A DNA stretch of 64,000 nt from the NCBI RefSeq assembly GCF_012275515.1, contig NZ_JAAZQL010000001.1:603006-667005 (forward strand). Reading direction: 5' to 3'. This DNA comes from Novosphingobium sp. SG707 (GTDB lineage: Bacteria; Pseudomonadota; Alphaproteobacteria; Sphingomonadales; Sphingomonadaceae). Numbering within the stretch: the first letter of the stretch is position 1; every line of letters begins with the position of its first letter. Below, one piece after another: positions 32,957-55,369 of this stretch. The notes beneath the pieces are model-generated. The model saw only the letters and a list, made by a program, of their open reading frames with translations, had not been told where the DNA came from and did no database searches. Position numbers and translations under genes: made by a program.

Positions 32957-32972
32957 GCGGCGCAGGCTATCA

Positions 32973-32990: not shown

Positions 32991-33019
32991 AGGTCATTTT
33001 TGTATAGGCGCGCTGCCGT

Positions 33020-33919: not shown

Positions 33920-33935
33920 GCAGGCAGGATAACCG

Positions 33936-33966
33936 ATAAGTCCAGCCTTGTCACTTATGACAAGGC
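33936..33966. promoter_or_regulatory. nested palindromes between LysR and TBDR
   Basis: GCCTTGTCA-CTTA-TGACAAGGC is a perfect 9-bp inverted repeat (33945-33966). It overlaps a second dyad, ATAAGT-N11-ACTTAT (33936-33941 and 33953-33958). Only one can form at a time if structured as RNA or bound. LysR proteins bind such paired sites in divergent promoters and shift between them on inducer binding. Confidence 0.6.
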
Positions 33967-34050
33967 CAGCCCCCTTTGCATGGGTGCGCCCGCCTTCCCT
34001 AGGCTGGCCATCAATCACCGACGGCAAGTTCGGGATCAGGGGAGAGGAAC

Positions 34051-36387: not shown

Positions 36388-36410
36388 TCATTCGCTCAAG
36401 GACAAATGCC

Positions 36411-37847
36411 ATGGCTTCTTTATCGCGACGTTCGCTTATTGCCCGGTCAACGGCTCTGATCGGGGCGGGTCTGGTGCCCGAACTTGCCAGAGCAGCGACG
36501 GACAAGGGGCAACGCCGACCCAATATCCTGTTCATTCTGGCCGATGATATGGGTTTCGCGGATCTCAGTTGCTATGGTCGGCGCGATTATGCCACGCCCG
36601 CGCTCGATGCTCTGGCGGCCGGGGGACTGCGCTTTACTCAGGCCTATGCCAATTCGGCGGTCTGTTCGGCCACGCGCACGGCGCTGATCACCGGGCGCTA
36701 TCAGAACCGGCTGCCCGTCGGGCTTGAGGAGCCGCTGGGCCAGCGTCCGGTCGGCCTGCCGCCCAGCCACCCCACGCTGCCCTCGCTGCTGCGCAAGGCG
36801 GGCTATGGCACGATGCTGATCGGCAAATGGCATCTGGGGGCGCTGCCCGATTATGGGCCGCAGCAAAGCGGGTATGATCATTTCTGGGGCTTTCGCGGCG
36901 GCGGTCTGGACTATTTCACCCACAAGGCTTTCGGCAAGGCGGACCTGTGGGATGATGCGCGCCAGATCGACCAGCAGGGCTATCTGACCGACCTGCTGGG
37001 CGCCAAGGCGCGCGAGGTGATCACGGACCATGCGCGGCAGGACAAACCCTTCTTCCTATCGCTGCATTTCAACGCGCCGCATTGGCCTTGGGAAGGGCCA
37101 GAGGATGTGGCCGAAGCGCGCCGTTTGGACGAAAGCGGCAAGCCCATGGCCATGTTCCATTTCGACGGGGGCAGTGCGAAGATCTATGCGCAGATGGTCA
37201 CGCGGATGGATTACCAGATCGGCCTGATCCTCAAACGCCTTGAGGAACTGGGCATGGCCGAGAACACGATCGTGGTCTTTACCAGCGACAATGGCGGCGA
37301 GCGCTTTTCCGACACCGGCCCGTTCACCGGGCGCAAGACCGAACTGCTCGAAGGAGGGCTGCGCGTGCCTGCTATCATCCGCTGGCCCGGCGTGACCAAA
37401 GCGGGCAGCGTGAGCGAGCAGACCATCATGACGATGGACTGGTTGCCCACCTTGCTGGCCGCCGCCGGGACCACACCCGATCCGGCCTTTCCCTCTGATG
37501 GCGAAAACCTGCTGCCCGTTCTGCGCCGCCCGGATCAGGCGCATGAGCGCAGTTTTTCGTGGCGCTATCTCAACCTCAATCAGGAGGCCTGTCGCAAGGG
37601 CGACTGGAAATATTTGAAAATCCTGAACAACACTTTCCTGTTCAACGTGATCGATGATCCGCAGGAGCGGGCGAACCTGAAGGACCGGATGCCGGAAAAA
37701 TTCCGCGAAATGCAGGCCGAGTGGCAGAAGTGGAACGCCCAGATGCTCCCCCTCGATTATGACGCAGGGACCAGCGGTTTTACCGGCGCGCAATTGCCCG
37801 ATCATTTCGGCATAGAAAAGGCTCAGACATTCGTGCGGCCCAAGTGA
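36411..37847 (+). CDS. Tat-exported sulfatase (arylsulfatase-like)
   Basis: 478 aa. The twin-arginine signal is SLSRRSLIARSTALIGAG with cleavage after LARA. The core shows NILFILADDMGFADLSCYG (calcium-binding Asp pair), the formylglycine site CSATRTALITG, GKWHLG with the catalytic Lys-x-His, and FTSDNGG. This is the arylsulfatase A-like layout. It acts in the periplasm on sulfate esters brought in by the adjacent TBDR. It differs from the 16-kb sulfatase, which has CGASR and a choline-sulfatase/iduronate-like head, so the two modules probably serve different substrates. Confidence 0.92.
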   Translation: MASLSRRSLIARSTALIGAGLVPELARAATDKGQRRPNILFILADDMGFADLSCYGRRDYATPALDALAAGGLRFTQAYANSAVCSATRTALITGRYQNRLPVGLEEPLGQRPVGLPPSHPTLPSLLRKAGYGTMLIGKWHLGALPDYGPQQSGYDHFWGFRGGGLDYFTHKAFGKADLWDDARQIDQQGYLTDLLGAKAREVITDHARQDKPFFLSLHFNAPHWPWEGPEDVAEARRLDESGKPMAMFHFDGGSAKIYAQMVTRMDYQIGLILKRLEELGMAENTIVVFTSDNGGERFSDTGPFTGRKTELLEGGLRVPAIIRWPGVTKAGSVSEQTIMTMDWLPTLLAAAGTTPDPAFPSDGENLLPVLRRPDQAHERSFSWRYLNLNQEACRKGDWKYLKILNNTFLFNVIDDPQERANLKDRMPEKFREMQAEWQKWNAQMLPLDYDAGTSGFTGAQLPDHFGIEKAQTFVRPK

Positions 37848-41138: not shown

Positions 41139-42173
41139 CTATCCTGACGCCTGTTCGGCCAATTCGCGGCCCAGCATCCGCGCAAGGATGCGCCTTGCCC
41201 GGATCGCGCCTTCGTCAAAGGGCAGGATGGCCGGTTTATGCGCCATGAGATCATTGGATCGCATCCGGCTGCGCACGGCCGCGATCATCGGCTCATCCTC
41301 AAATTCAAAGGCGTTTTGCGTGCCTTGGTGCAGCATGGCCGAAACCTGCTCGCTGTCTTTGGCGCTGTTCCTGCCCGCCGCCCAGAAATAGCGCGTGGCA
41401 TTCTCGCCCTGCGGGACCAGCAGATGCATGACCACCAGTTGCGGATCATTCCCAGCTGCGCTTTCCCCGCGTCCCATGCTGGTTTTCAGCGAGAGGCGGG
41501 CGGGCGCCTGCCAGACAATATCGGCCACCATATTCGCCCGCTCCGGGGTGTCGGGCCACAGCAATTGGAACAGGCCCGTCACCGGCTCGTCCCTGATCGT
41601 ATAGACCGAGCGAACCTCATCGCCCATCTGTTCGCAGCGATAATGCGTGCGGGCCGCATTGCCCGGCGAGGCGAGGAAGGGATGGAGAAACTCAACATGG
41701 GTCAGGTCGAGCAGATTGTCCGTAACCAGCTCGTAATGGACCCGCACATCAAGCTGTCCATGGACCCATGTCAGGCCGGGATCGTCGAAAAGCGGCAGGT
41801 CGGGCAGGGGGTGACTTTCCTCGCCCCCTTCTGCGCCCATCCAGATCCATAGCATGCCATAGCGCTCGGCCACCGGAAAGGCGCGGACGCGTAGCGCCGA
41901 AACGGTGGCGCCATGGCCATGCGGATTGTGGACGCATCGCCCCGCCCCATCGAATTCCAGCCCGTGATAGCCGCAGACGATACGGCCATTGCGCGACTTG
42001 CCCCGGCTTAAAGGGGCAAAGCGGTGGGGGCAGGCATCATGAAGCGCCTTGGGCTGCCCGCCTTCGCCGCGGAAAAGGACGATGAACTGATCCAGCATGG
42101 TCAGTTCCATCGGCGCATCGCCCAGATCGGCGGACCATGCGGCCGGATACCATGCGTTGCGCAGGAATGTCAT
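41139..42173 (-). CDS. Rieske non-haem iron oxygenase (VanA-like demethylase/hydroxylase)
   Basis: 344 aa. The Rieske cluster ligands are C48-x-H50 and C67-x2-H70 (ACPHRF and IVCGYHG). The mononuclear iron site lies in DNLLDLTHVEFLH. The size and NAWYP start match vanillate O-demethylase-type oxygenases, which demethylate or hydroxylate aromatic acids using electrons from a separate reductase. No reductase or ferredoxin gene is in the window, so it must borrow one. The ATG overlaps the DoxX stop (ATGA); it is the last gene of a four-gene operon. Confidence 0.9.
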   Translation of the reverse strand: MTFLRNAWYPAAWSADLGDAPMELTMLDQFIVLFRGEGGQPKALHDACPHRFAPLSRGKSRNGRIVCGYHGLEFDGAGRCVHNPHGHGATVSALRVRAFPVAERYGMLWIWMGAEGGEESHPLPDLPLFDDPGLTWVHGQLDVRVHYELVTDNLLDLTHVEFLHPFLASPGNAARTHYRCEQMGDEVRSVYTIRDEPVTGLFQLLWPDTPERANMVADIVWQAPARLSLKTSMGRGESAAGNDPQLVVMHLLVPQGENATRYFWAAGRNSAKDSEQVSAMLHQGTQNAFEFEDEPMIAAVRSRMRSNDLMAHKPAILPFDEGAIRARRILARMLGRELAEQASG

Positions 42174-42598
42174 GCTTTCCTCTCCCGATTGGCCCGTCGC
42201 CGGGCGATTATGGCATCAAGGCTCCACGCGCCGCCCCCGGCCAGCGCCAGATAAAGGAACACAAAGCAGAACAGGATGGCCAGATCCCCCTGATTGACCA
42301 CCGGCATCCAGCCATCCTTCATGGCCAATCCGGCGGGGAAATGGATCATCCAGTAGGCGACCGCCATCTCCCCGCTCAAAACAAAGGCGACGGGGCGCGT
42401 GGCAAGGCCCAGCACGATGGCCAGACCGCCGAAAAATTCAAGACAACCCGCCAGCCCGGCAAGGCTGAAGATCACCAGCGGGCCGGGGTGATGTACACTG
42501 GCGGGCCACAGGAACAGCTTTTGCACCCCATGCTGCATGAAGATCAGACCGGAGACGATGCGCAGCAGGCCAAGGCCGATCCGGACCGGCGGGTTCAT
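42170..42598 (-). CDS. DoxX family membrane protein
   Basis: 142 aa from MNPPVRIGLGLLRIVSGLIFMQHG, four membrane helices, the DoxX/DoxD-like pattern with GVQKLF and LAGLAGCLEFFGGLAIVLGL. One base separates it from the upstream FAH gene and it overlaps the Rieske gene. DoxX proteins are inner-membrane proteins of uncertain redox function, often inside aromatic-degradation operons; here it may help electron supply or detoxification. Confidence 0.87.
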   Translation of the reverse strand: MNPPVRIGLGLLRIVSGLIFMQHGVQKLFLWPASVHHPGPLVIFSLAGLAGCLEFFGGLAIVLGLATRPVAFVLSGEMAVAYWMIHFPAGLAMKDGWMPVVNQGDLAILFCFVFLYLALAGGGAWSLDAIIARRRANRERKA

Positions 42599-42599
42599 A

Positions 42600-43676
42600 T
42601 CACCACTCCGTGATAAAGGGGCCATAGGTGGGGCTGCGCCCGCCCGTTTCCTCGGCCACAATGCGGTTGGTCTGGCGGCCCAGACCGGTGATCTCGCTTT
42701 CCATCACATCGCCCGGTTTCAGCCATGCATTGCCCCACATCGCCCCATTGCCCGGCGGCGAACCGGTGATCAGCAGATCGCCCGGAACCAGTCGGATGCG
42801 TTCGGAGGCATAGGACAGGATCTGTTCGGGCTGAAAGATCATGTCGGAAATCGGCCAGTCCTGACGGATCTCGCCATTCACCTTCAGGCGGATCTGGACC
42901 TTGTTGCGGTCGACAAATTCCTTGGGCACGGCAAAGGGGCCGAAGGGTTTGAAATTGGGCTGATGCTTGCTGACCCAATCATACATGAAGCGGACATCGG
43001 CGCGGCGGAACTCGTCCACGGTGCCTATGTCATTGACCATGACATAGGCCGCGATCAGATCGCCCGCCTCGTCCGGGCGGATATAGCGGCCCGTCCGCCC
43101 GACGATGGCGCCGAATTCGAGCTCCCAGTCGGGATGCTGCCCGATCAGCGGCAAAGGCACATCCTCATTGGCGCCGCAGAGCGAGGAATGCAGGCCGGTC
43201 CAGAAATAGGGCATGCCTTCGCGCGCGCGCCGGTCGATTTCGCCCAGGTTACGCTCAAAGAACGCCTCGTCGCTCTCGCCCGCGATGCGCTTGTCCTGAT
43301 TGAACTTGTTGAAGGTCATCATCTCGGCGACATGCTGGCGGTAATTGGACCCGGCGCACAGCAGGTTGGGATGGGCCAGCACCGGCAGGATGGTGAGCGC
43401 CCGATAGTCATGGGCATGGCGATCCTGACGCGCGGCCACATCATTGGCCAGGTTGGAGGCGCGCGTCCAATCCTCGAAGACGGCATGGGTGTCGCGGTAT
43501 TCCTCGGCCAGACTGTACACCCCGCCGCCGGGCACCACCACGCCGGGGAAGGCCGCGCCATCGCCATCGCGGAACGTGCCGATGCCAAAGGAGCCGGCCA
43601 CCAGCCCGGTGATATCGTCAATGCCCTCAGGCTCGGGCGCTGCGGGAAGGGGTTTGAGAAAGCTGTGGTCTGTCAT
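42600..43676 (-). CDS. fumarylacetoacetate hydrolase family protein
   Basis: 358 aa from MTDHSFLKPL. The C-terminal FAH domain has the metal-binding acids in DWELEFGAIVGR and MVNDIGTVDEF, plus LVPGDLLITGSPPGNG. It is longer than the 284-aa enzyme near the left end, with a different N-terminal part, and matches FAH proteins found beside ring-cleavage dioxygenases. It probably hydrolyses the C-C bond of the ring-cleavage product made by the VOC enzyme encoded 37 bp upstream. The exact substrate is unknown. Confidence 0.88.
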   Translation of the reverse strand: MTDHSFLKPLPAAPEPEGIDDITGLVAGSFGIGTFRDGDGAAFPGVVVPGGGVYSLAEEYRDTHAVFEDWTRASNLANDVAARQDRHAHDYRALTILPVLAHPNLLCAGSNYRQHVAEMMTFNKFNQDKRIAGESDEAFFERNLGEIDRRAREGMPYFWTGLHSSLCGANEDVPLPLIGQHPDWELEFGAIVGRTGRYIRPDEAGDLIAAYVMVNDIGTVDEFRRADVRFMYDWVSKHQPNFKPFGPFAVPKEFVDRNKVQIRLKVNGEIRQDWPISDMIFQPEQILSYASERIRLVPGDLLITGSPPGNGAMWGNAWLKPGDVMESEITGLGRQTNRIVAEETGGRSPTYGPFITEW

Positions 43677-43713
43677 GGTATGACCTCGCGTAAGGGGTTG
43701 GAAAGGTTGATGT

Positions 43714-44649
43714 TCAGGAAAAATAGCGGTCGGGCGGGTCCGAGCTCCACACATCCATTTCGACGTCATGGACATCGTGAATGCGGCTGCCGTCGGATTT
43801 GCGCAGGCGGTCGGTGTCGGTGAAGGTTTCGAAGCGGTTGCGGTCCGGGTCGCGCCAGACATCGAAAACATGGCTGCCGTGGGGATGGCGTCCGACGCCC
43901 CAGACCAGATCATAGCCGCGCGATTCCAGATAGCGGTGCGACATGAACTGGGCTTCGAAATCCTGCGCTTCAAAGCTGATGTGGTGGCAGTCGGTGCGCC
44001 CATCCATGCTCTGCATCAGCGCGATGCAATGGTGATCGACCAATTCCTCGCCATGGTCGAGGCGCAGGAAGCCGATGATCTGGACATGGGGCAGGCCCGG
44101 CACGTGATAGATATCACTGGGGATCAGGCCCAGCACGTCCCTGTACCACGGCAGGCTGGCGAGGAAATTGGGGACGAACAGGCCGATATGGCCCAGCCGG
44201 AACAGTTTGGCCGGGGCCATCGGGCGTTTGGGTTCAAAGCGCCCCTCGCGCGGATAGGCGAGCGGTGAGTTGATCTGCCACGCGGGATAGGCGGGCAGGG
44301 CCTGTTTCGCGCCGACGCCATGGACCAGATCCACGCGAAAACCGTTGGGATCGCTCAGCGTCACGCAGCGCCCACCGCCCGGCAGATCAAGTTCGGCGAT
44401 GCCTTGCGCGCCCTGCGCCGCGATGGCCTCCTCCAGATCGGCCGGGCTGGCCACTTCAAAGGCCAATCCGATGAATTTGGGCTCCTCGGCGCGATAGGCG
44501 ACATAGGCAAAGGCGTCGCCGCCCTGCGTGGCCATGACCAGACGCTCGGCCGTATGCTCGACGGTGATCAGGCCGAAGTCCTGCGCGAATTGTTCGGTTT
44601 GCGCCAGATCGCGCACATGGAATGTAACATGGTGCAGCTTGCGCAGCAT
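43714..44649 (-). CDS. two-domain VOC protein, type I extradiol dioxygenase-like
   Basis: 311 aa from MLRKLHHVTF with GGAGAGAGG upstream; 23 further residues are open before it. Two vicinal-oxygen-chelate domains are seen, with the iron triad expected in the second: His in RLGHIGLFV, His in TDCHHISFEA and Glu in NRFETFTD. This matches catechol 2,3-dioxygenase/2,3-dihydroxybiphenyl dioxygenase relatives, cytoplasmic ring-cleaving enzymes. First gene of the VOC-FAH-DoxX-Rieske operon, divergent from a LysR gene, with a TCCAAT dyad between. Confidence 0.88.
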   Translation of the reverse strand: MLRKLHHVTFHVRDLAQTEQFAQDFGLITVEHTAERLVMATQGGDAFAYVAYRAEEPKFIGLAFEVASPADLEEAIAAQGAQGIAELDLPGGGRCVTLSDPNGFRVDLVHGVGAKQALPAYPAWQINSPLAYPREGRFEPKRPMAPAKLFRLGHIGLFVPNFLASLPWYRDVLGLIPSDIYHVPGLPHVQIIGFLRLDHGEELVDHHCIALMQSMDGRTDCHHISFEAQDFEAQFMSHRYLESRGYDLVWGVGRHPHGSHVFDVWRDPDRNRFETFTDTDRLRKSDGSRIHDVHDVEMDVWSSDPPDRYFS

Positions 44650-44738
44650 CACGGCCTCTCTCCCCGGTTCCTGTTTCGCGGCGCTGCCAGACTGCGCCTG
44701 CGGTGTCCCCGCATTCATCGGCCAGTGGGCAGAAAGCG

Positions 44739-44755
44739 TCCAATCGAATATTGGA
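44739..44755. promoter_or_regulatory. LysR-type operator TCCAAT-N5-ATTGGA
   Basis: Perfect 6-bp arms in the 141-bp divergent region between the VOC operon and the LysR gene, 36 bp before the LysR start. The same layout recurs at 48172-48188 before a TBDR. Confidence 0.6.
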
Positions 44756-44790
44756 GTTGTTTGGTATAACTAAGGCTGATACAAAGCCCC

Positions 44791-45684
44791 ATGCGATTTG
44801 ACGGGCTTGACCTTAACCTGCTGGTGGCTTTCGAAGCCTTGATTGAGGAGCGCAATGTTTCGGCGGCGGCGCGGCGGCTGAATCTGACGCAACCGGCTGT
44901 CACCGGCGCGCTCAACCGGTTGAGGGATTATTTCCGCGACGATCTGCTGGTGCTGCATGGGCGCAAGATGCAGCCCACCCCCAAGGCCGAGGACCTGTCG
45001 GGCCCGGTGCGCCGCGCCCTGCTGCAAATCCGGGGCGAGATCACGCGGGCGGGCGATTTCACCCCGGCCACGTCCAGCCGCCATTTCCGCATCATCGCTT
45101 CGGATTATGCCTATACGATCGGGCTGGCCGATCTGTTCGTGCGCGCCTCGGCGCTGGCGCCCAAGGTGACGTTTGAGGTGATCCCGCCCAGCAGTCAGGC
45201 CTCGGAACGGCTGGAGCGGGCCGAAGTGGATGTGGCGATCACCGTGCATCCCTATGTGAACGCCAAATATCCCTCGATGGAATTATGGCGCGACAGCGAC
45301 GTCATCATCAGCTGGCGCGATGCGGGCTATACGACCATCACCGAGGATATATTCTTCGAGGTGGGCCACGCCGTTTCCACCTTTGGCCCTGATCGCCGCC
45401 CATCGGTAACCGACGAATATATCGCGAAAATGGACCGTGAACGCCGAGTCGAGGTCTTGTTGCCCAGTTTTGGCGATCTGTGTCGCGGTGTTGTGGGCAC
45501 GCGGCGACTGGCGACCATGCACCGCCGCTATGCCGAATATTTCGCGCGGGTCTATCCCATCGCCATTCACGAAACGTGGCAACCCTTCCCGGAGATCATC
45601 CAAATCGCGCAATGGCACAAGGTGCGCGACAGCGATCCGGGCCTGCATTGGATCCTGCGCCTGTTGAGCGAAATTCAGGCATAA
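44791..45684 (+). CDS. LysR-family regulator, NodD/NahR-like
   Basis: 297 aa beginning MRFDGLDLNLLVAFEALIEE, the NodD/NahR branch. The HTH is NVSAAARRLNLTQPAVTGAL, followed by RLRDYFRDDLLVLHGRKMQPT. It is divergent from the aromatic operon and is the likely activator. The sensor domain (HFRIIASDYAYTIG) is like those that bind aromatic acids. It is close in its first 70 residues to the LysR at 22.7 kb, so the two may be paralogues. Confidence 0.9.
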   Translation: MRFDGLDLNLLVAFEALIEERNVSAAARRLNLTQPAVTGALNRLRDYFRDDLLVLHGRKMQPTPKAEDLSGPVRRALLQIRGEITRAGDFTPATSSRHFRIIASDYAYTIGLADLFVRASALAPKVTFEVIPPSSQASERLERAEVDVAITVHPYVNAKYPSMELWRDSDVIISWRDAGYTTITEDIFFEVGHAVSTFGPDRRPSVTDEYIAKMDRERRVEVLLPSFGDLCRGVVGTRRLATMHRRYAEYFARVYPIAIHETWQPFPEIIQIAQWHKVRDSDPGLHWILRLLSEIQA

Positions 45685-45690
45685 GGAAGA

Positions 45691-45714
45691 GGGGGAAGGG
45701 CATCGCCTTCCCCC
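45691..45714. terminator. bidirectional hairpin between LysR and TBDR
   Basis: GGGGGAAGG/CCTTCCCCC, a perfect 9-bp stem with a GCATCG loop, between the convergent stops at 45684 and 45724. Weak T tract, but position and symmetry fit a shared terminator. Confidence 0.7.
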
Positions 45715-45723
45715 GCCGTATCA

Positions 45724-48105
45724 TCAGAATTTATAGGACACGCGGCCACCAAAAGTGCGCGGTGGGCGCAGGGTGGTGGCGTAGAAGCTGGTCCCGGGCG
45801 TCGGGAAAGCCTGAGAGAGCAGCGTCTTGTCAAAAATATTGTTCATATACAGGCCCAGCGACAGGCCCGAAGAGCGCAGGCGGAAATTGATCTGTGCATC
45901 GGCCAGCCAATAGGCGCCCTGTGTTTCGACCGGCGCGAATTCCATGCCGATCACCGTGGTGGTCTGGTAATGCGCCTTGGCATTCAGCGTGAATTCGCCA
46001 AAAGACACCGGAATATGCTGTTCCAGCCCCAAATTGAGCGTCCATTCCGGGGCATTGACGGGCCGCCTGCCGCTGCAATCAATGATATAGGCGCCCGAAC
46101 CGGCAAAGCTCGCCGTGGGGCATGAGGTGCCGTTAAACACTCCGCCGTTCGAATTGGGGCTTTGAAAGGTGAACTGGTCATAGCTGGCGTCGAGATATTG
46201 CAGGTCGGCCGACAGGGTGGTCTGTGCCGTGGCGGCAAAGCGCGCCTCCAGTTCGAAGCCCTGAAACGTTGCGCGGCCCACATTTTCGGTCACGAAGGTC
46301 GGCACGCCCGCCACGGTCAGCAGGTGGCTGATCTGTTGATTGCGGTATTTCCAGCGAAAGAGTTCAAGGTTCAACTGGACCCGATTACCCCAGAAACGGT
46401 TCTTCGAACCCAGCGTGACGGCCTGAAGCGTCTCGGGATCGAAGGAACCGCCCGCGCCGTTCGGGCTGTAATAGAAGCCGCCAGCCTTGAACCCGGTCTC
46501 AAACGAGGCATAGACCAGATTGCGCGGCGTAATGTCCCAGTCCGCGCCCGCGCGCCATGTGAATTTGCCAAAGCTTCGGGCCTGATTGTTGGTAAAGACG
46601 GTGGCCGACTGGATGACATTGGGGGCATTGACCACATCGGGCAGCCCGCCATAGGGCGCCGCCCCCAGCGTGGGAACCAGCACCGAGGGGAAGGCGCCCA
46701 GGGCGGCCGGTGTCGGGCCATAGGGCAGCGAGGGCGCGGTGGGGCAGGATGCGGCCGTGCAGATGCGCGTCAGCGACACACGGCTGCCGGTAAAATCCTT
46801 GTCTTCCCATGTCTGCCTGCCGCCGATGGTCAGCCGGATGTCGGGCGTCACGGCATAGGTCAACCGTCCGAACAGCGCCTTGCTGGTGGTGTTGAGCAGC
46901 ATATCCTTGTCATATTGCGCGTTCCAGTTGGACGCATAATCGCCATAGGGGCCATAGGTGTGATCGTGATAATAGAAGGCGCCCAGCAGCGCGCGCAGCG
47001 GCTTTGACTCGGGCGTGGCAAAGCGCGCCTCCACGCTGGTCTGGGCGTTGCGTTCGACCGCGTTGACCTGAAAGCCCGGCGTGAAACTGTTATAATTCAA
47101 ATGGCCTTCGCGATAGGACGGCAGAATGGTCAGCGTGCCAAAGTCGCTGACCCATTCAGCCGATCCCGCGATCCCGAAAAAATTATTGCGCAAATAGGGC
47201 TGGAAGCCAGACGGGAAGGGCTGAAACGGTCGGCCCAGCAGGCCCGCGCGCTGGCTGGTGTAAAAAGCCTGTCCCTGGGGCGAGAAGATGCCGATGCGGC
47301 TGTCAGGCGATATGGTTGCCGCCGTGGCAACGCCTTGCGGGGCCAGCAGCGGGGTCATGCCCACGCCCCGTCCGCCCTGATCGAAATAGTCGGCGATCAG
47401 ATTGAGGTGGACCGCGCTGCTCGGTTCAAAGCGCAAGGATCCGCGCAGGCCGACATCGTCCTGATCGTCGGTGCCGTCATTCATATAGCCGTCGTGCTTG
47501 ACGCGCATGGCCGCGATCCGCGCGGCTGCCCTTTCGCCGATCGGGACATTGAGGGCGGCGTCCAATCGCAGCGCCGCGTAATTGCCGACATCCACCCCGG
47601 CAAAACCGCCCCAAGCCCCCAGTTGCGGCTTTTGCGGCAAGACATTGATCGCACCCCCGGTGGCGTTGCGACCATAAAGCGTGCCTTGCGGCCCTTTGAC
47701 CACCTCGACCCGTTCGAGGTCATAGAAAAAGCCCGACGTGGCCGAAGGACGGCCAAGATAGACGCCCGCGAAGTTGAACGCGATGGCGGAATCGGAAAAG
47801 GCATTGCCGTTGAAATTGCCCACCCCGCGAAGATAGAACAGGTTATAAGGCCCCGCCGCAGGCGCCACCTGCAACGAAGGAACCACATTGCCCAGCGCCG
47901 TGGGCTGGGTGATGCCGGTGTTTCTCAATTCATCGCCGCCGATGGCCGAAACGGCAATGGCGGCCTTTTGCAGGCTCTCGCTGCGCCGCTGGGCGGTGAC
48001 GACAATGTCCTGAATGGCCGGCCCGCTGTCGGTCTCCGCCGCGCGGGCCAGATCGGGCATGACCAGCGCCAGCAGGCTGGACGCGATGAAATAGGCTGAT
48101 TTCAT
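45724..48105 (-). CDS. TonB-dependent receptor
   Basis: 793 aa from MKSAYFIASS, with GGGGAGAGAG upstream. The signal ends LARAAE. The TonB box is QDIVVTAQRR, the plug has FYLRGVGNFNGN and VEVVKGPQGTLYGRNATGGAINV, and the barrel ends LRPPRTFGGRVSYKF. The last receptor of the window ends with the same LRPPRTFG block, so these two are close relatives. It lies downstream of the ACMSD-like and Rieske genes on the same strand and its promoter carries a copy of the LysR dyad of the VOC operon. It probably imports the aromatic substrate, as DdvT does for a lignin dimer in Sphingobium. Confidence 0.93.
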   Translation of the reverse strand: MKSAYFIASSLLALVMPDLARAAETDSGPAIQDIVVTAQRRSESLQKAAIAVSAIGGDELRNTGITQPTALGNVVPSLQVAPAAGPYNLFYLRGVGNFNGNAFSDSAIAFNFAGVYLGRPSATSGFFYDLERVEVVKGPQGTLYGRNATGGAINVLPQKPQLGAWGGFAGVDVGNYAALRLDAALNVPIGERAAARIAAMRVKHDGYMNDGTDDQDDVGLRGSLRFEPSSAVHLNLIADYFDQGGRGVGMTPLLAPQGVATAATISPDSRIGIFSPQGQAFYTSQRAGLLGRPFQPFPSGFQPYLRNNFFGIAGSAEWVSDFGTLTILPSYREGHLNYNSFTPGFQVNAVERNAQTSVEARFATPESKPLRALLGAFYYHDHTYGPYGDYASNWNAQYDKDMLLNTTSKALFGRLTYAVTPDIRLTIGGRQTWEDKDFTGSRVSLTRICTAASCPTAPSLPYGPTPAALGAFPSVLVPTLGAAPYGGLPDVVNAPNVIQSATVFTNNQARSFGKFTWRAGADWDITPRNLVYASFETGFKAGGFYYSPNGAGGSFDPETLQAVTLGSKNRFWGNRVQLNLELFRWKYRNQQISHLLTVAGVPTFVTENVGRATFQGFELEARFAATAQTTLSADLQYLDASYDQFTFQSPNSNGGVFNGTSCPTASFAGSGAYIIDCSGRRPVNAPEWTLNLGLEQHIPVSFGEFTLNAKAHYQTTTVIGMEFAPVETQGAYWLADAQINFRLRSSGLSLGLYMNNIFDKTLLSQAFPTPGTSFYATTLRPPRTFGGRVSYKF

Positions 48106-48171
48106 GTCTCTCTCCCCATTTTGGTTTTTGCTCTTGTGGCAGGCGATGAAATCATGCGATCCGACCATTCG

Positions 48172-48188
48172 TCCAATCATCAGTTGGG
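48172..48188. promoter_or_regulatory. second LysR-type site TCCAAT-N5-GTTGGG
   Basis: Same arm sequence and 5-base spacing as at 44739, two mismatches in the right arm. It lies 67 bp before the TBDR ATG, in the 121-bp gap after the amidohydrolase gene. Confidence 0.5.
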
Positions 48189-48226
48189 CAATCAGAAATC
48201 ATTTTTATTGATAGTTTGACGCAGGC

Positions 48227-49303
48227 TCATTCCCGCCCGCATGAGTCGCATAGGGGGCTCAGACCCAGCAATTGCGCCGCATTCAGTCCCAGCAGGCGGG
48301 CCTTGACCGGATCGGGCAAATGCGCGTGAAAACCCACCGGATCGGGCTCGCCCATGTCGAAGGGGTAATCCGTGCCCAGACACAATTTGTCAGCGCCATG
48401 GGTGCGCACCAGCGCGTCGAGCTGATCCCGGTCGAACACCAGCGTGTCGAGCCAGACCTGGCGCAGATAGGAGGACGGCTCACGCGTGATGAACCGGCGG
48501 CAATCATCGCGCGCGCGATAGGCATGATCCATCCGCCCCCAATAGGCGGGCAGATAGCCGCCTCCATGGGCCACGCATAATTTCAGCCGCGAATGCTGTT
48601 CCAGCACACCGCCGAAAATCAGATGGCTGAGCGCGATGGAGGATTCGAGCGGATTGCCGATGATATTGTCGAGATAATGTTCGGCCAGACGCGCGCCATG
48701 GGTAAAGCCCAGCGGGTGCAGAAACAGCAGCACGCCCAGTTCCTCGGCCGCCGCGAAGAAGGGCCGGAACGCATCCTCGGCCAACTCGCGCCCCGCCACA
48801 TTGGTGCCGATCTCGATCCCGCGCAGCCCCAGATCACCCACACAGCGGCGCATCTCCCGCACCGCCATCTCGACATTCTGCAGCGGCACCGTGCCCATGC
48901 CCACCAGCCGGTCGGGATGCTGCGCCACCGCTGCCGCGATCCCGTCATTGACCATCCGTGCGGCATCGCGGCCCAGTTCATCGGGAGCGAAATAGTAATA
49001 TTGGCCGGGCGAGGGACTGATGGCCTGCACATCGACGCCAAGCCGGTCCATATCGGCCAGCCTTTCGTCAATGCCGTTCAATTTGCGCCCAATGGCGGCG
49101 AAAAGCTTGGCATTGGTGGCCATCGAGGCCGCAGACATGAAGGCCAGCGGATTGGGCGGATTTTCGACCTCGGCGCGGATCAGCGCTTCGGCGGCGGCAA
49201 TGTTCATGTGGCAATGCAGGTCCACCACCAGATGCCTGCCCCGCTGCGCCACAGGGATCGGCGCGCGCTCAGGCCCGCAGGCGCAGAGGTGATCGCCGCT
49301 CAT
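48227..49303 (-). CDS. ACMSD-family amidohydrolase/decarboxylase
   Basis: 358 aa. Metal ligands: His30 and His32 (DLHCHMN), a His in LLFLHPLGF, a His in CVAHGGGYLPAYWGRMDH and Asp in LGTDYPFDMGE. This is the aminocarboxymuconate-semialdehyde decarboxylase group, which also holds gamma-resorcylate and 5-carboxyvanillate (LigW) decarboxylases, zinc or manganese enzymes removing a carboxylate from an aromatic acid or cleavage product. The ATG overlaps the Rieske stop (ATGA). An oxygenase plus a decarboxylase in one operon fits stepwise breakdown of a carboxylated or methoxylated aromatic. Confidence 0.9.
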   Translation of the reverse strand: MSGDHLCACGPERAPIPVAQRGRHLVVDLHCHMNIAAAEALIRAEVENPPNPLAFMSAASMATNAKLFAAIGRKLNGIDERLADMDRLGVDVQAISPSPGQYYYFAPDELGRDAARMVNDGIAAAVAQHPDRLVGMGTVPLQNVEMAVREMRRCVGDLGLRGIEIGTNVAGRELAEDAFRPFFAAAEELGVLLFLHPLGFTHGARLAEHYLDNIIGNPLESSIALSHLIFGGVLEQHSRLKLCVAHGGGYLPAYWGRMDHAYRARDDCRRFITREPSSYLRQVWLDTLVFDRDQLDALVRTHGADKLCLGTDYPFDMGEPDPVGFHAHLPDPVKARLLGLNAAQLLGLSPLCDSCGRE

Positions 49304-50352
49304 GCCTCGGCCTCCAGCATGGCGGCGATGCGGCGGCGGACCTTGACCGCGGGGCCATCGGATTTGACCAGCAACTCGCGCTGGATCTGCGATGCGGCAT
49401 CGACATGGGGTTCGACGGCCTCGATCGCGTCAATGTCCTGCTGGCGGATCTTCTTGTCCGATTCCAGTTGGAAGGCATCGAGCACCTCGTCATCAAGGCG
49501 GAAATTGCGATTGGCAAAGCCGAAATAATGCGAACTCGTTGCCGTTTCCGGAGTGATGCCATGCAGGATATGCAGGTGGCCCAGTGCGGATGGCACATGA
49601 TCTTGCCCCGGCACGCTGGTGAACAGCGGCATATTGGTGCGGATCAGTTCGGGGCCATAGAAATCGGTGATGGATTCCCAGTCGGCCAGCCCTTCGTACC
49701 TATGATCGGCGCCCCATAACAGATCGTGGAATCCGCCCCATGGCAGTTTGCCGCTGCGGATCAGGCGATAGCTGCGCTCGCGCTCTTCCTCACGCATGGG
49801 CATGGCCTTCATCGCCTCGCCCCCCGCGATATGGTGGTGCAGATAGGGCAGGTGGGTAAGGTCCATCAGATTGTCGATCAGCAATTGTGCCCGCGCCCGG
49901 ATGGTGAAATGGTTGGGCGAACTGTAGCGCCACCCCTCGACCCCCAGCCCGAAATCGGCATAGGGCGGAATCAGATCCGGGTCGCACCGATCCGCATCCC
50001 CCATCCAGATCCAGCAGAGCGGGCCGCGTTCCTCGACCCGATAAGTGGGCTGGCAAAAGCCCGCGCCCGTGCCCTGTGAAGGGATGGCGCTGCATTTGCC
50101 ATCGGCCTCAAACACAAAGCCGTGATAGCCGCAGACCAGCGCATCGCCCTCCACCCGGCCCTTGGCCAGCGGGAAATAGCGGTGCGGACACAGACCATAC
50201 ATGGCCACCGCCTCGCCCGCCTGCGTGCGATAGAAGGCCAGCGGCTTGCCGAGGATGGTGCGGCCAAAGGGTGTGCGCGTGATTTCTTCGGAAAAAGCCG
50301 CGATATACCAGCGGTTCATCACAAAGGGCTGCGCCTTGCCAAACGGGTACAT
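49300..50352 (-). CDS. Rieske non-haem iron oxygenase
   Basis: 350 aa; GGAAGAGG precedes the ATG. Rieske ligands C55-x-H57 (LCPHRYF) and C74-x2-H77 (VCGYHGF). The iron site is in DNLMDLTHLPYLHH. It belongs to the same VanA/LigX-like class as the oxygenase at 41 kb but is clearly a different protein (MNRWYIAAF start). It lacks a reductase neighbour. First gene of the operon with the ACMSD-like decarboxylase and the TBDR, divergent from a LuxR-type regulator. Confidence 0.9.
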   Translation of the reverse strand: MYPFGKAQPFVMNRWYIAAFSEEITRTPFGRTILGKPLAFYRTQAGEAVAMYGLCPHRYFPLAKGRVEGDALVCGYHGFVFEADGKCSAIPSQGTGAGFCQPTYRVEERGPLCWIWMGDADRCDPDLIPPYADFGLGVEGWRYSSPNHFTIRARAQLLIDNLMDLTHLPYLHHHIAGGEAMKAMPMREEERERSYRLIRSGKLPWGGFHDLLWGADHRYEGLADWESITDFYGPELIRTNMPLFTSVPGQDHVPSALGHLHILHGITPETATSSHYFGFANRNFRLDDEVLDAFQLESDKKIRQQDIDAIEAVEPHVDAASQIQRELLVKSDGPAVKVRRRIAAMLEAEA

Positions 50353-50560
50353 GCCTCTTCCTTTTTGTGGTTTTATGGGATTTTCGTCAGTTTAGCGGCG
50401 GGGCTTTTGAAATTAAAATCAATCTTGGATGATGAAGATATCACCATAATCTATGGAGTGGCCGCGCCCGCGCCATTGACCGGGCATGTCATCGCGTGAC
50501 GGATCTCGCCTTGACGCCAAAATCGGAGTAGCTTGACCCTTAAGCGGGCCGGAGAGCACC

Positions 50561-51685
50561 GTGACGGGCAGAGAGGAGCGGCAGCCGCCGGTGGATGACA
50601 ACCAACTCATCGCCACGATGTATGGCGCGGTCGGCGAGGAATTGCGCTGGACCGCCGTTCTTGATGCGATAAAAATGCGGCTGGGCGTGGCCAGCGCCGT
50701 GTTTCAGAGCCTGGTTGCCGATAAGGACGACCTTGTCCCCTTCCTTTGTCGGCGCGACACATGGTCGACGCAGGAGGCCGAACGCCACGATGCCTGGGCC
50801 AATTCGCCGCTCAACCCTCGCTTTCGCCGCGATACCGAACCGCAGGGGCAGGACGAGATCGAGAGCGACCAGCGCAGCCTTGCCTTCACCGCCGCCGACC
50901 GAGAGGCGTTACGTCTCGGTCTGGCCACCTGCGGTCTGGGGCCGGGGTTCTGGCTGGGGTGCAAGACCGCGCCGGGCGAACATACGACGATGATTTTTCA
51001 TCGCCATGTCGGCGACGGGCGCGACATGACCGAGGCCGACCTGTATTTTCTGCAACAACTCCTGCCCCATTTCCAGCAGGTTTCGCTCCTGCTTGCCAAA
51101 ACGGCCGGATATGACGCCCGTCTCGCCATGACCGAGGCTTTCATGGATTCTACCAGCCTTGCGCTGGTGGCCTGTGACCGGGATCTGGGCCTGCAATGGA
51201 TGAATGCCGCCGCCGAAAGGCTGATCGACACATTGCCGCAGATCGCGCGCTCGGCCGGAAAGTTGCGCCTTCGCGCGATGGAGGCCGACCAGATGGTCCG
51301 GGAAACCATCCGGGGGCAGAAAGGGGATACCTGCCGCCTTGTAGGGGATGAGCCTGCGCAAGTGCTGCATCTGCGCGTGCTGCGCCGTGATGCTGTCGAC
51401 CGCCGCCGTCCGGGCAACAACCTCGCGCTTGTTGCGCTCTGCTCGCCCGGCACGGCGCCCAGCATCAATGCGGCCGAGGTGGCCGATCTGTTCGGGCTGA
51501 CCATGGCCGAGGCGATGCTGACCGCGCATCTGGTGGGCGGCATGACGGTCAAGGATTTCGCCGCCCATCGCGGCATTGCCGAGGGCACGGCAAGGATGCA
51601 GCTCAAAAGCGCGCTGGCCAAGACCGGGGTTGGTCGTCAGGCTGATCTGGTCCGGCAGGTCTGCCAGTCGCTCGCGCGGCTCTAG
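50561..51685 (+). CDS. LuxR-type HTH regulator with PAS-like sensor
   Basis: 374 aa from GTG with GGAGAG upstream. The C-terminal HTH has LTMAEAMLTAHLVGGMTVKDFAAHRGIAEGTARMQLKSALAKTG with the family layout of a helix, a recognition helix and the KTG end. The first 300 residues are an uncharacterised sensor region with a PAS-like part near 190-290 (STSLALVACDRDLGLQWMNAAAERL). Such stand-alone regulators are common in sphingomonads. It is divergent from the Rieske/ACMSD operon and may control it; the ligand is unknown. Confidence 0.8.
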   Translation: MTGREERQPPVDDNQLIATMYGAVGEELRWTAVLDAIKMRLGVASAVFQSLVADKDDLVPFLCRRDTWSTQEAERHDAWANSPLNPRFRRDTEPQGQDEIESDQRSLAFTAADREALRLGLATCGLGPGFWLGCKTAPGEHTTMIFHRHVGDGRDMTEADLYFLQQLLPHFQQVSLLLAKTAGYDARLAMTEAFMDSTSLALVACDRDLGLQWMNAAAERLIDTLPQIARSAGKLRLRAMEADQMVRETIRGQKGDTCRLVGDEPAQVLHLRVLRRDAVDRRRPGNNLALVALCSPGTAPSINAAEVADLFGLTMAEAMLTAHLVGGMTVKDFAAHRGIAEGTARMQLKSALAKTGVGRQADLVRQVCQSLARL

Positions 51686-51733: not shown

Positions 51734-53926
51734 TCAGAAGGTCACGTTCAGCTTGACACCAAACTCACGCGGCGCGCCATAGAACTCGTTCGAGTTCAGT
51801 TGCCCGGTGATATATTGCTTGTTCGTCAGGTTCGTGCCCCAAGCCTCGACCTTCAGCCTGTCGTTGAGCTTGAGCGTGACAATCGCGGAAAGCAGCCCGC
51901 GCGCATTGAGCCGGTCCGACAGCGGCGAATAGCCGATATAGGTGAATTGCTCACCCACATAGGCATAGTTCACCCGCGGCGTCAGCGTCACCTCGCCGCC
52001 CAGCGACAGTTCATATTCGATGCCGCCCCCCCACGTCAGGCGCGGCGCATAGAGGTTGGGGCCGCCGCCCGTGGTCTGGATAAAGGGGCGATAGTCAAAG
52101 CAGAGCGGGGGCGAGGAGGGCTGACCGGCCGGGCATTGCGGGCCGAGATTGGCCCCGCCCAGTTGCCGCGTATTGACGAAGGTCACGCTGGCCAGATGCG
52201 AATCCACAAAGGCAACATTGGCGTCAAAGCCCAAGCCGCCAAAGCGCCCCTGCACCTGCGCCTCGACGCCCTTGATCTTGACGGTGGAGATGTTCTCCAC
52301 GCCAGAAAAGCCGGTGCTGGGTTCGACCACGTTGAACTGGAAATTGGAGTATTGGTTGTAGAAAGCGCTGAGCTGGGTGCGGATGCGGTTGTGCAGGAAG
52401 GCCGATTTCCAGCCCGCCTCATAGCTGATCACGCGTTCGGGGTCGAAATTGGACGTAGGCGAATTGAAGCCGCCCGGCTTGTAGCCGCGCGCGACCAGCG
52501 CATAGAGGAGGTTGTCGCGATCCATTTTCCAGTTGAGCGCGAATTTGCCGGTTGCCAGCGAATCCTTATGCTCGCCCGCCAGCGAGGCCACGGCAAGGCC
52601 GCCCGTCGGAAAGCCCGGAATGCCGCGCCCGATCGTGACATCGCCATAGCCGGTCGCCTTATAGGTCGAATAGCGCGCGCCCAATTGCGCCTCAAGGCCC
52701 GGAACGATCTCGTAATTGCCTTGCGCGAACAGGCCGGTGGTCGTGCGCTGGTTGCCGCCGATGATGTCGGTGGGAAAGCCGCCTTGGTCCTGAAGGATGC
52801 GGATGCGGATGTCGTTGCGCTGGAAATAGCCGCCCAGAATCCAGTCGAACCGCCCCGCCGTGGGCGAGATGATGTTGATTTCCTGCGTATAGACCTTTTC
52901 GCCCGCGAAATAGTTTTCCGCCACGCCGCCCGGCCCGGCCGAAGCATCGACATCGTTGAGCGCATTGATCCGCTTGTTCTGATAACCCGTGACCGAGCGC
53001 AGCACGATCCCGTTGGCCAATTCCTGTTTCAGCTCAAGGCTGGCCTGAAAGGCGCGTTCGCGGTTGGCAACGGGTGTATCGAAGCTGAGTGTGCGGATAT
53101 CGCCCACGCGGTAGGCATCAAAGGGCGTGCCAAGGATCGGGCGATAGGCATAGCCGCCTGTGTTGCGATCATTGAAGGACACTTTGGCGATGGCCTGAAA
53201 CGATCCGGGCTTCCACATGGCGGTCAGGCGGCCGCCGCCTTCCTGCAGCTTGCCCGCGTCCGTGGGCACCGGGCCGACGCTGGTGTAATAGCTGCGGTGG
53301 CTGCGATAGAAACCGGCCGCGCGCAGCCCGAATGTGTCGGAAACAGGCAGGTTTACCGCGCCTTCGGACTGGAACGAATTGTAATTGCCGACGCCCACCG
53401 TCGCATAGCCGCCCAGCCCCTTGTTGAGCTGCGGGTTCTGCGTGTTGATGAAGATCGCCCCGCCGGTGGAATTCGACCCCACCAGCGTCCCCTGCGGCCC
53501 GCGCAGCACTTCGACGCTGGCCAGATCGTAAAAGCTGTTCCCTTGCACGATCGGCGGCTGGAACAGGCCATCGACATAGGTGGCGACACCGGCCGTCACG
53601 CTGGGCGAATTGCTGGCAAGGCCGATGCCGCGAATGTTGATCGACTGGGTAATGCCGCCATCGGAGATCGAAAGGGCCGGGCTGGCATTTTGCAGATCGG
53701 ACAGGTTGGTCACCGCCTTGGCGGCCAGCGAGCCGGAATCGAAGGCTGTTGCCGAGACGGCCAGATCCTGCAGCTTTTCCTTGCGCCGCTGGGCCGTGAC
53801 GATGATGTCGCCAACGCCTTGACTGGCGCCCTCGGTTGCGGGGGCTGCTTGCTGCGCCAGACCGGCATCCGGTTGGAAAGCAAGGGCGAGCGCAAGAGCG
53901 CCCCCCAGCATAGAGTGAAGTTTCAT
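51734..53926 (-). CDS. TonB-dependent receptor
   Basis: 730 aa, ATG preceded by GGGAGGG. Signal peptide ends GLAQQ. The TonB box is GDIIVTAQRR. The plug shows SINIRGIGLASNS and VEVLRGPQGTLVGSNSTGGAIFI; the barrel ends KLNVTF. It is the second gene after the serine hydrolase, 25 bp apart, so the two are co-transcribed. The hydrolase partner suggests an ester or amide-bearing ligand. Confidence 0.93.
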   Translation of the reverse strand: MKLHSMLGGALALALAFQPDAGLAQQAAPATEGASQGVGDIIVTAQRRKEKLQDLAVSATAFDSGSLAAKAVTNLSDLQNASPALSISDGGITQSINIRGIGLASNSPSVTAGVATYVDGLFQPPIVQGNSFYDLASVEVLRGPQGTLVGSNSTGGAIFINTQNPQLNKGLGGYATVGVGNYNSFQSEGAVNLPVSDTFGLRAAGFYRSHRSYYTSVGPVPTDAGKLQEGGGRLTAMWKPGSFQAIAKVSFNDRNTGGYAYRPILGTPFDAYRVGDIRTLSFDTPVANRERAFQASLELKQELANGIVLRSVTGYQNKRINALNDVDASAGPGGVAENYFAGEKVYTQEINIISPTAGRFDWILGGYFQRNDIRIRILQDQGGFPTDIIGGNQRTTTGLFAQGNYEIVPGLEAQLGARYSTYKATGYGDVTIGRGIPGFPTGGLAVASLAGEHKDSLATGKFALNWKMDRDNLLYALVARGYKPGGFNSPTSNFDPERVISYEAGWKSAFLHNRIRTQLSAFYNQYSNFQFNVVEPSTGFSGVENISTVKIKGVEAQVQGRFGGLGFDANVAFVDSHLASVTFVNTRQLGGANLGPQCPAGQPSSPPLCFDYRPFIQTTGGGPNLYAPRLTWGGGIEYELSLGGEVTLTPRVNYAYVGEQFTYIGYSPLSDRLNARGLLSAIVTLKLNDRLKVEAWGTNLTNKQYITGQLNSNEFYGAPREFGVKLNVTF

Positions 53927-53951
53927 ATTTCCCTCCCTTTGTTTTATGTTG

Positions 53952-55187
53952 TTAGGATTGGGGCTTCCACGCCGAGGCGGCGGCCAGAAATGCCAGCGTC
54001 TCCTGGCTCACTTCGCCGTCCTGCGGCGGGAAATAGCTCAGCTTGACCACGACGGTCCGGCTTGCCGGATCGATGTAGACATATTGTCCCTGCAGCCCGA
54101 TGGCCGAATAGGCGGGCGAATTGGCCATGGTCCACCATTGATAGCCATAGCCGCCTTCAGGGCCGTCTTCCGGTCCGGCGGGGGCTTGCGCCGCCTTGAC
54201 CCAATCGGCGCCGACCACGCGCTTGCCGTTAATCACGCCCTCGTCGAGCATCATCTGGCCAAAGCGTGCCCAGTCGCGCAAGGTGGCGTTGAAACCGGCG
54301 CCGCTGAACTCGCGCCCGGTGCCCGGTTCGCCATCCATGATGTAGAACCCGTCCGCCTCGGTGCCCAGCGGTTCCCACAGCTTGCGCGCGGTGTAGGCCG
54401 CCACCGATCCGCCGCTGACCCTCTCGATCATCCAGCCCAGAACGGCGGTGTCGATGGTCTTATAGGCAAAGACCTCGCCCGGCTTGGACTTGCGCTTGAT
54501 CGTGCGGGCCACATCGGCAAAACGCGCGACATTCTTGACCAGCGCGTTGATATGGTTGCTGGCCGCGATGCCGGGGTTGGCAAAATCATAGCGCTCTTCA
54601 TAATCGACGCCCGAGCGCATCTGGAGGATCTGGCGGATGGTCACGCCATCATAGCCGCCGCCCTTCAATTCGGGCAGATAGCGGGTGATCGGATCATCGA
54701 GCGAGGCGATCAGGCCGTCCGCCAGCGCCGCTCCGACCAGCGTCGAGGTGATCGACTTGGTCATCGACCAGCCCATGAAGCGCGTGCGCTCGTTCGATCC
54801 GTTGCGATAGATCTCGGTGACGATCCGCCCGTCCTTCATGATGAGCAGCGCGTTGGTATAGGTCCGCTCCAGCGCCTGCTGGGCGGTCCAGGTCTTGCCC
54901 GCGAAGGAATAGGTGAAATCCATCGGCCGCTCGACCTTGGGCAGGGGCGAGGGCGCCCCCGAATGGCCGACAAGGCGCGTGGTGAACAGTTGATCCATGT
55001 TGCGGAAGGCGAAAGAGTTCACATCCGCATCGTTCATGTGCCAACGCATGACCTGCGTGGCCACCGGCACGTCGGAGCGGACCTCTCCCTTCAATTGGGC
55101 CGGAAGTTGCTGCTGGGCGCAGACCGTCGTCGGCCCCGCCAGCAAACCAGCCATCGCGCCCACGGCTAGACGAAATGCAAAAGTCAT
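53952..55187 (-). CDS. exported serine hydrolase, class C beta-lactamase-like (NylB/EstB group)
   Basis: 411 aa from MTFAFRLAVG with GGGAGATGG upstream. The signal ends VCAQ. The active-site Ser-x-x-Lys is in FMGWSMTKSITS, the second-motif Tyr in VFAYKTIDTAVLGW, and the third region is GLQGQYVYIDP in place of the KTG of true lactamases. This is the layout of 6-aminohexanoate-dimer hydrolase and family VIII esterases, so esters or amides and not antibiotics are the likely substrates. It acts in the periplasm and is co-transcribed with the TBDR downstream. Confidence 0.88.
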   Translation of the reverse strand: MTFAFRLAVGAMAGLLAGPTTVCAQQQLPAQLKGEVRSDVPVATQVMRWHMNDADVNSFAFRNMDQLFTTRLVGHSGAPSPLPKVERPMDFTYSFAGKTWTAQQALERTYTNALLIMKDGRIVTEIYRNGSNERTRFMGWSMTKSITSTLVGAALADGLIASLDDPITRYLPELKGGGYDGVTIRQILQMRSGVDYEERYDFANPGIAASNHINALVKNVARFADVARTIKRKSKPGEVFAYKTIDTAVLGWMIERVSGGSVAAYTARKLWEPLGTEADGFYIMDGEPGTGREFSGAGFNATLRDWARFGQMMLDEGVINGKRVVGADWVKAAQAPAGPEDGPEGGYGYQWWTMANSPAYSAIGLQGQYVYIDPASRTVVVKLSYFPPQDGEVSQETLAFLAAASAWKPQS

Positions 55188-55369
55188 GTTGATCCATCTC
55201 CCTGCGACCCGGCTTTCATGAGCCGCCGCTGAGCCCATATTGGCGCGCGCTGGGGAGGGGCGCATGAACCATTTGGTATATGCCATATCAATTTTTATGG
55301 ATGGCGGATGCGGGCGCGATGATGGCGCAGCGCTTTTATGCTTGCTTGCCCGGCCTCGCTCCGCCGGGC

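Follow-up and report, generated by a model that had tools for sequence, protein, structure and literature searches.

A cluster of genes predicted to act in aromatic catabolism lies in a stretch of 64,000 nucleotides from the 5.64 Mb genome of Novosphingobium sp. SG707; this whole stretch is referred to here as the window, and coordinates are window positions. The Pfam families represented are VOC/glyoxalase, FAA_hydrolase, DoxX, Rieske together with VanA_C (twice), LysR, TonB receptor, and Amidohydro_2, and the Pfam and NCBIfam searches bear out the gene families named in an earlier reading made from the letters of the window alone (the sequence-only reading), which had proposed a two-operon aromatic pathway linked by a shared LysR dyad. 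The genes and candidate regulatory sites are arranged as follows.

41139–42173, minus strand: Rieske1, a VanA_C-type Rieske oxygenase (Pfam); its start overlaps the DoxX stop
42170–42598, minus strand: DoxX-family membrane protein (Pfam); start taken from the sequence
42600–43676, minus strand: FAH, fumarylacetoacetate-hydrolase family, putative hydrolase of a ring-opened product (Pfam)
43714–44649, minus strand: VOC, two-domain type I extradiol dioxygenase by its sequence (Pfam, NCBIfam); the longest frame begins at 44718
44734–44755, minus strand: candidate LysR site 1, TCCAATATTCGATTGGACGCTT, between lysR and VOC (matrix, conservation)
44791–45684, plus strand: LysR-type regulator (Pfam)
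45724–48105, minus strand: TonB-dependent receptor, TBDR (Pfam); start from a signal-peptide-like N-terminus and relatives
48167–48188, minus strand: candidate LysR site 2, CCCAACTGATGATTGGACGAAT, before TBDR (conserved block; weak by matrix)
48227–49303, minus strand: AMH, putative amidohydrolase-superfamily (ACMSD-like) decarboxylase (Pfam); its start overlaps the Rieske2 stop
49300–50352, minus strand: Rieske2, a VanA_C-type Rieske oxygenase (Pfam)

Site 1 sits between lysR, which reads rightward from 44791, and the leftward run VOC-FAH-DoxX-Rieske1, the members of which are closely packed (37 bases between VOC and FAH, one base between FAH and DoxX, and an overlap of DoxX with Rieske1). 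The VOC start is probably at 44649, near which distant relatives align (residues 23–25 of the longest frame), although four nearer relatives align from residue 12–13 of that frame and a start earlier than 44649 is possible. The longest TBDR frame begins at 48180, inside the dyad of site 2, but the signal-peptide-like N-terminus favors 48105; the TBDRs of five relatives can be aligned with this shorter version from its first residue onward, and 61 bases separate its start from the inner end of the scored site 2 (48167). There are probably three leftward transcription units – the VOC run, TBDR, and Rieske2-AMH – where two operons had been proposed, and the Rieske2-AMH transcript may read through into TBDR. 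The frame at 50561–51685 has no match in Pfam or NCBIfam.

VOC is rare, being present at E 1e-60 in three of 397 genomes of the family (its own included) and at E 1e-70 in one of 398 genomes of a phylum sample, namely its own. Linkage was examined in a set of 12 loci carrying VOC, comprising the window, the G187 and G341 loci, and relatives on genome contigs (two Novosphingobium with VOC at 89–90%, N. capsulatum at 77%, Nitrospirillum iridis at 70%, Alteromonas sp. MMG017 at 70%, and two Marinomonas at 69%) or on plasmids (Novosphingobium sp. THN1 at 76% and N. humi at 45%); two further plasmid records (about 45% identity) and paralogues from the genus at 32–39% are left out. Gene presence was scored by tblastn, and absences are soft because several stretches stop at contig ends. 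FAH (at least 65%) and AMH (at least 58%) are present in all 12 loci, LysR (at least 44%) in 11, Rieske2 (at least 56%) in ten, TBDR (at least 48%) in six, DoxX in five, and Rieske1 (at least 65%) in four, the window included. In the unannotated THN1 record the match to FAH covers two thirds of the gene and that to AMH is split into two pieces that overlap; both genes may be frameshifted there.

The nearest relatives of the region are in Novosphingobium, and the linkage spans alpha- and gammaproteobacteria as far as Alteromonas and Marinomonas, which are marine genera; records with the core genes also include lake water and soil sources. The enzymes form a single same-strand gene run in Nitrospirillum (L034; cyclase-FAH2-Rieske2-AMH-VOC-FAH-DoxX-Rieske1-TBDR-ferredoxin reductase) and in G341 (L026; TBDR-VOC-FAH-AMH-MBL-Rieske2, then cyclase-FAH2-formaldehyde dehydrogenase), the G341 TBDR being just 25% similar to that of the window. 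The conserved linkage and the one-strand runs make a single pathway far likelier than two neighboring ones, and the two proposed operons thus most likely belong to one pathway, as had been supposed. Cyclase and FAH2 genes are linked in seven of 11 relatives (one interrupted by a contig end). We rejected the cyclase as a specific marker, since it is too common, occurring in 113 of 397 family genomes as against nine of 13 tested records; the 13 include three single plasmids, all without a match (plasmid EMRT-2 lacks the cluster VOC), and G455, where the contig ends within the cyclase.

Both dyads are present as claimed, with TCCAATCGAATATTGGA at 44739–44755 and TCCAATCATCAGTTGGG at 48172–48188, their starts 3433 bases apart (3.4 kb in the claim). 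In the window the pattern TCCAAT-N5-RTTGGR has three strand-wise matches, at two places, where 0.07 would be expected by chance; since its degenerate form was chosen once the two sites were known, this figure is post hoc and the rarity is suggestive only. It occurs at three places in the genome, two of them being the cluster sites and the third lying on contig 2 inside a 522-aa open frame (L054:5871–7439). When up to three mismatches are permitted, matches to the dyad do not exceed the number expected by chance (13 found, 21.3 expected).

Comparison with the relatives indicates that conservation is mainly in the right half, GATTGGAC(G), which follows a left half rich in A and T, and that the perfect dyad is not kept. 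The TCC of the left arm is unconserved, so the perfect dyad is partly accidental, and we rejected it as the site; loci L023, L033, and L035 are among those that have no match to it within two mismatches. Before VOC a 15-base block, ATATTCGATTGGACG, shows no variation among five species, and upstream of TBDR the longest invariant block in four species is TGATTGGAC. The sequence GATTGGACG occurs upstream of lysR, no more than 150 bases away, in nine of ten loci, reaching Nitrospirillum, Alteromonas, and Marinomonas, with G341 as the exception; L024 and L025, where lysR is arranged differently or no close lysR is present, are omitted from this count. The chance of this occurrence is between 0.00005 and 0.0043 per region, figures that are not to be multiplied because the loci are related.

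A site matrix was built from the lysR-divergent sites of seven relatives, with the window excluded and L030 omitted as near-identical to L029. Its best match in the window is site 1, with 28.7 bits against 15.7 for the runner-up. The TBDR sites rank second in N. capsulatum (16.1 bits) and third in Novosphingobium sp. SG751A (11.9 bits), each within its own locus. A further copy of the element is present before VOC in Nitrospirillum (27.9 bits), Alteromonas (18.4 bits), and two Marinomonas (12.2 and 13.9 bits, which hardly exceed their background). The lysR and VOC promoters both carry it in L032–L035 (weakly in L033 and L035), and the lysR/VOC and TBDR promoters both do so in three named Novosphingobium as well as in the window. 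Where the element stands upstream of lysR, the DNA-binding domain of LysR is 77–100% identical to that of the window, and in four LysR proteins without it the identity is 60–69%. What stands of the shared LysR dyad is a conserved element at the VOC and TBDR promoters, the conserved part being GATTGGAC(G) and site 2 being weak here; judged from the relatives, the two gene runs are more firmly linked than a single-sequence reading could reveal.

VOC matches PF00903 on its second half, and NCBIfam extradiol models span both halves, although below their cut-offs; the top models are HpaD, biphenyl-2,3-diol 1,2-dioxygenase, and catechol 2,3-dioxygenase, at 37–54 bits against cut-offs of 320–366. Residues H154, H222/H223, and E274 are invariant across eight orthologues, and from the BphC pattern we take them to be candidate metal ligands. 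With its two-half fold and His/His/Glu candidate ligands, VOC has the sequence characters of a type I extradiol enzyme. The closest solved relative of FAH is L-2,4-diketo-3-deoxyrhamnonate hydrolase (8gsr, 119 bits). The action of this relative on a 2,4-diketo acid agrees with a ring-opened product resembling an acylpyruvate. Structure predictions for VOC and AMH from eight-row alignments gave mean pLDDT values of 56.0 and 57.5, too poor to use.

AMH matches mammalian-type ACMSD at 200–202 bits, bacterial ACMSD at 132–138, and LigW/LigW2 at 96–99. Residues H30, H32, H196, H246, and D312, presumably those of the amidohydrolase metal site, are invariant across eight orthologues, as is Arg265, which aligns with Arg243 of ACMSD. 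Arg47 and Arg243 of human ACMSD are its substrate-binding arginines, and Arg47 aligns with Ala69 of AMH. With the metal site kept and just one of the two arginines, AMH is by sequence ACMSD-like without being classed as an ACMSD; a plain kynurenine-type ACMSD role is not favored in the absence of an aligned Arg47, and the substrate probably differs from ACMS. LigW was rejected as the closest relative on bit scores alone. The sequence-only reading had a LigW-like decarboxylase here, a view that gives way to one in which decarboxylation probably follows ring opening, AMH being nearer ACMSD than LigW.

Both Rieske proteins have PF00355 and PF19112 domains and contain a CxH-x17-CxxH Rieske motif and a D-N-x2-D-x2-H-x4-H mononuclear-iron motif. 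The best solved relatives of Rieske1 are 7qwt (202 bits) and DdmC 3gb4 (196 bits), in that order, and those of Rieske2 are DdmC (149 bits) and 7qwt (128 bits); 7QWT is GdmA of Rhizorhabdus wittichii RW1 according to the available text of its description (PMC12445004). The G341 cluster includes a glutathione-dependent formaldehyde dehydrogenase (615 bits against a cut-off of 544), which fits O-demethylation. The demethylation suggested earlier is thus supported, as far as sequence goes, by the nearness of the Rieske proteins to DdmC and GdmA and by the dehydrogenase of this one relative. Two genes with a GCV_T domain, the type found in tetrahydrofolate-dependent O-demethylases, lie about 8–16 kb from the G187 cluster. 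As to electron supply, there is a ferredoxin reductase in the Nitrospirillum locus, L033 has a reductase of the flavin/2Fe-2S type close to Rieske2, and elsewhere in the SG707 genome are three ferredoxin reductases, 59–60% to the Nitrospirillum one. DoxX adjoins a Rieske gene in six loci (window, L029, L030, L033, L034, and L057) and, in clusters lacking a reductase, might be the redox partner. In G187 and N. humi the slot after FAH is occupied instead by a cytochrome b561-type protein (L025:8583–9044 and L024:13990–14574).

AMH orthologues (65–70%) are found in 21 of the 397 family genomes, SG707 included, and 18 of these have no VOC match at E 1e-60. We examined the loci of ten of the 18. 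In nine (L090–L097 and L099) the arrangement is TBDR-VOC'-flavin monooxygenase-FAH-MBL-FAH-AMH, often with an MFS transporter, and Novosphingobium sp. EMRT-2 is organized likewise (L057:3507–14309); a search of the open-access literature gave no description of this cluster. In the tenth, AMH lies beside a flavin monooxygenase-VOC'-hydrolase-cyclase-FAH2 block. SG707 itself has this last block on contig 5, in a second aromatic cluster with its own TBDR and LysR followed by flavin monooxygenase, VOC', SnoaL, alpha/beta hydrolase, cyclase, and FAH2 genes (L052:8432–17246), with no AMH in the stretch read and nothing above 9.1 bits by the site matrix; its cyclase is 95% identical to that beside Rieske1 in SG751A. 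The recurrence of AMH with extradiol and FAH genes, together with its likeness to ACMSD, suggests a place for it after ring opening. We suggest tentatively, and with less than even confidence, that AMH, an extradiol enzyme, and FAH constitute a reusable catabolic core with differing front ends – Rieske demethylases in the window cluster, a flavin monooxygenase and MBL-fold hydrolase in the nine, and cyclase/FAH2/flavin-monooxygenase genes in the one – and that alpha- and gammaproteobacteria would thereby have a so far undescribed means of funneling polyphenols that carry carboxyl and methoxyl groups.

Next to the region, window 51734–55286 encodes another TonB receptor along with a protein of the beta-lactamase family, and elsewhere in the window, at 31226–37847, are a tannase/feruloyl-esterase-family protein, a LysR, a TonB receptor, and a sulfatase, perhaps another plant-polymer uptake locus.

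We infer the substrate, the reactions and their order, and binding by the LysR of the cluster as follows, and regard the scheme as having about an even chance of being right. The window would encode a LysR-controlled catabolic cluster for a carboxylated aromatic with at least one methoxyl group. TBDR would take up this compound, and Rieske2 (plus Rieske1 in some strains) would O-demethylate it to formaldehyde and a catechol, with electrons from a reductase encoded elsewhere. VOC would then cleave the catechol ring in extradiol fashion, AMH would decarboxylate the ring-opened product, and FAH would hydrolyse a carbon-carbon bond to yield central metabolites. LysR would bind the GATTGGAC(G)-type sites at the lysR/VOC and TBDR promoters.

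Several observations weigh against this scheme, in addition to the missing counterpart of Arg47 in AMH and the 18 genomes with AMH and no VOC. There is no reductase gene inside the window cluster, and at E 1e-20 the SG707 genome contains nothing that matches the reductase of the Marinomonas type; the cyclase and FAH2 genes of SG707 are on another contig, with no site of note nearby. Site 2 scores 7.7 bits by the matrix and ranks eighth in the window, below calling if taken alone, and two of the four exact copies of GATTGGAC in the window are inside FAH (43465) and TBDR (47560), so the octamer alone is unspecific. G187 has one copy of the element (17.3 bits) between divergent VOC and TBDR, while its LysR candidates are a 30% protein near VOC and a 44% one about 18 kb off with a DNA-binding domain at 61%, which fits poorly with the correlation between the element and this domain. 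Finally, GATTGGAC is absent before Rieske2-AMH in the window, L029, L030, L031, and L023, and a different conserved block, around ATTGATT, is located upstream of Rieske2 (window 50353–50560; five species). These last observations suit an arrangement in which LysR governs VOC-FAH-DoxX-Rieske1 and TBDR only and Rieske2-AMH answers to another regulator, possibly the gene at 50561. We regard this as a serious contender, falling only somewhat short of an even chance; it is at odds with L032, L033, and L035, where the lysR-divergent site directly precedes AMH, and with Nitrospirillum, where it precedes the cyclase-FAH2-Rieske2-AMH run.

The order of reactions might also differ. AMH could decarboxylate the intact aromatic acid before ring cleavage in the manner of LigW or a resorcylate decarboxylase, for LigW, LigW2, and the gamma-resorcylate decarboxylases share its superfamily (69–99 bits) and Arg47 of ACMSD is not kept; the higher scores with ACMSD (132–202 bits), the invariant Arg265, and the recurrence of AMH orthologues beside other extradiol/FAH pathways, as OpaD occurs with OpaC in the available account (PMC6362003), make this unlikely, if by no means negligible. 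It is less probable still that VOC opens a hydroquinone- or gentisate-type ring and not a catechol, with FAH hydrolysing a maleylpyruvate-like product. PcpA, LinE, and DsmD are examples of such cleavage, FAH does match maleylpyruvate hydrolases (weakly, at 38.5 bits), and dicamba catabolism proceeds by DdmC-type demethylation to a salicylate and then a chlorogentisate, but the best NCBIfam models for VOC, even at their low scores, are of the catechol type. That two unrelated pathways merely adjoin, with the motif resemblance due to chance, seems very improbable given the linkage in 12 of 12 loci across alpha- and gammaproteobacteria and the invariant sites, even with a weak site 2 and with Rieske1 and DoxX in just four and five of the loci.

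Comparison with known systems suggests that the parts are of known kinds while the combination and substrate seem undescribed. In the Sphingobium SYK-6 DDVA/5-carboxyvanillate branch (LigX, LigZ, LigY, LigW, DdvT) there are likewise a Rieske demethylase, an amidohydrolase-superfamily enzyme, and a TonB receptor, but LigZ is a type II extradiol enzyme, unlike VOC, and the DDVA/LigY pathway was ruled out by the AMH scores (39 bits with LigY and 96–99 with LigW). The o-phthalate opa cluster of Pseudomonas sp. PTH10 resembles the window cluster in that a type I extradiol dioxygenase (OpaC) is followed by a metal-dependent, ACMSD/NbaD-like decarboxylase (OpaD) acting on the ring-opened carboxylated product; it differs in starting with a ring-hydroxylating dioxygenase and continuing through a full 2-hydroxymuconate semialdehyde meta pathway, and the available text describes no sole follow-up FAH hydrolase, Rieske demethylase, or TonB receptor (PMC6362003). 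Among the window proteins scanned in and beside the cluster, which are part of the frames, there is no semialdehyde dehydrogenase, hydratase, or aldolase. HcdB and HcdC of the 7-hydroxycoumarin pathway of Pseudomonas mandelii 7HK4 likewise pair a type I extradiol enzyme with an FAH-family hydrolase of its product, but the pathway starts with a flavin hydroxylase and the hcdABC operon, in the portion available, has no decarboxylase or Rieske enzyme (PMC6222606). In the fde (naringenin) and ifc (isoflavone) clusters a glyoxalase-type (VOC) dioxygenase also opens a plant polyphenol ring, with entry by a flavin monooxygenase and with cupins, and the accessible parts of the two accounts describe no amidohydrolase decarboxylase or VanA_C Rieske protein (PMC11069340, PMC8552027). 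DdmC (dicamba) and GdmA (7QWT; PMC12445004, as far as its text was available) are the nearest solved relatives of Rieske1 and Rieske2, which match them at 128–202 bits only and have no adjoining reductase gene.

The contention that the cluster matches no pathway was thus too strong, since the OpaC/OpaD and HcdB/HcdC pairs are described, at least in the available texts (PMC6362003, PMC6222606); of the cluster as a whole, searches of the open-access literature gave no description, and the accessible text of a 2026 review of lignin dimer pathways has no such combination (PMC12997858). The observation holds, and the cluster brings enzymes of familiar types together in a way that is new among meta-cleavage pathways. 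The conserved gene set and the DNA element (GATTGGACG behind an AT-rich half) provide a handle for finding further members and the inducer. If the order of reactions is right, then a single pathway would combine demethylation with opening of the ring and decarboxylation of the resulting chain, and it might find use with streams of methoxylated lignin or polyphenols.

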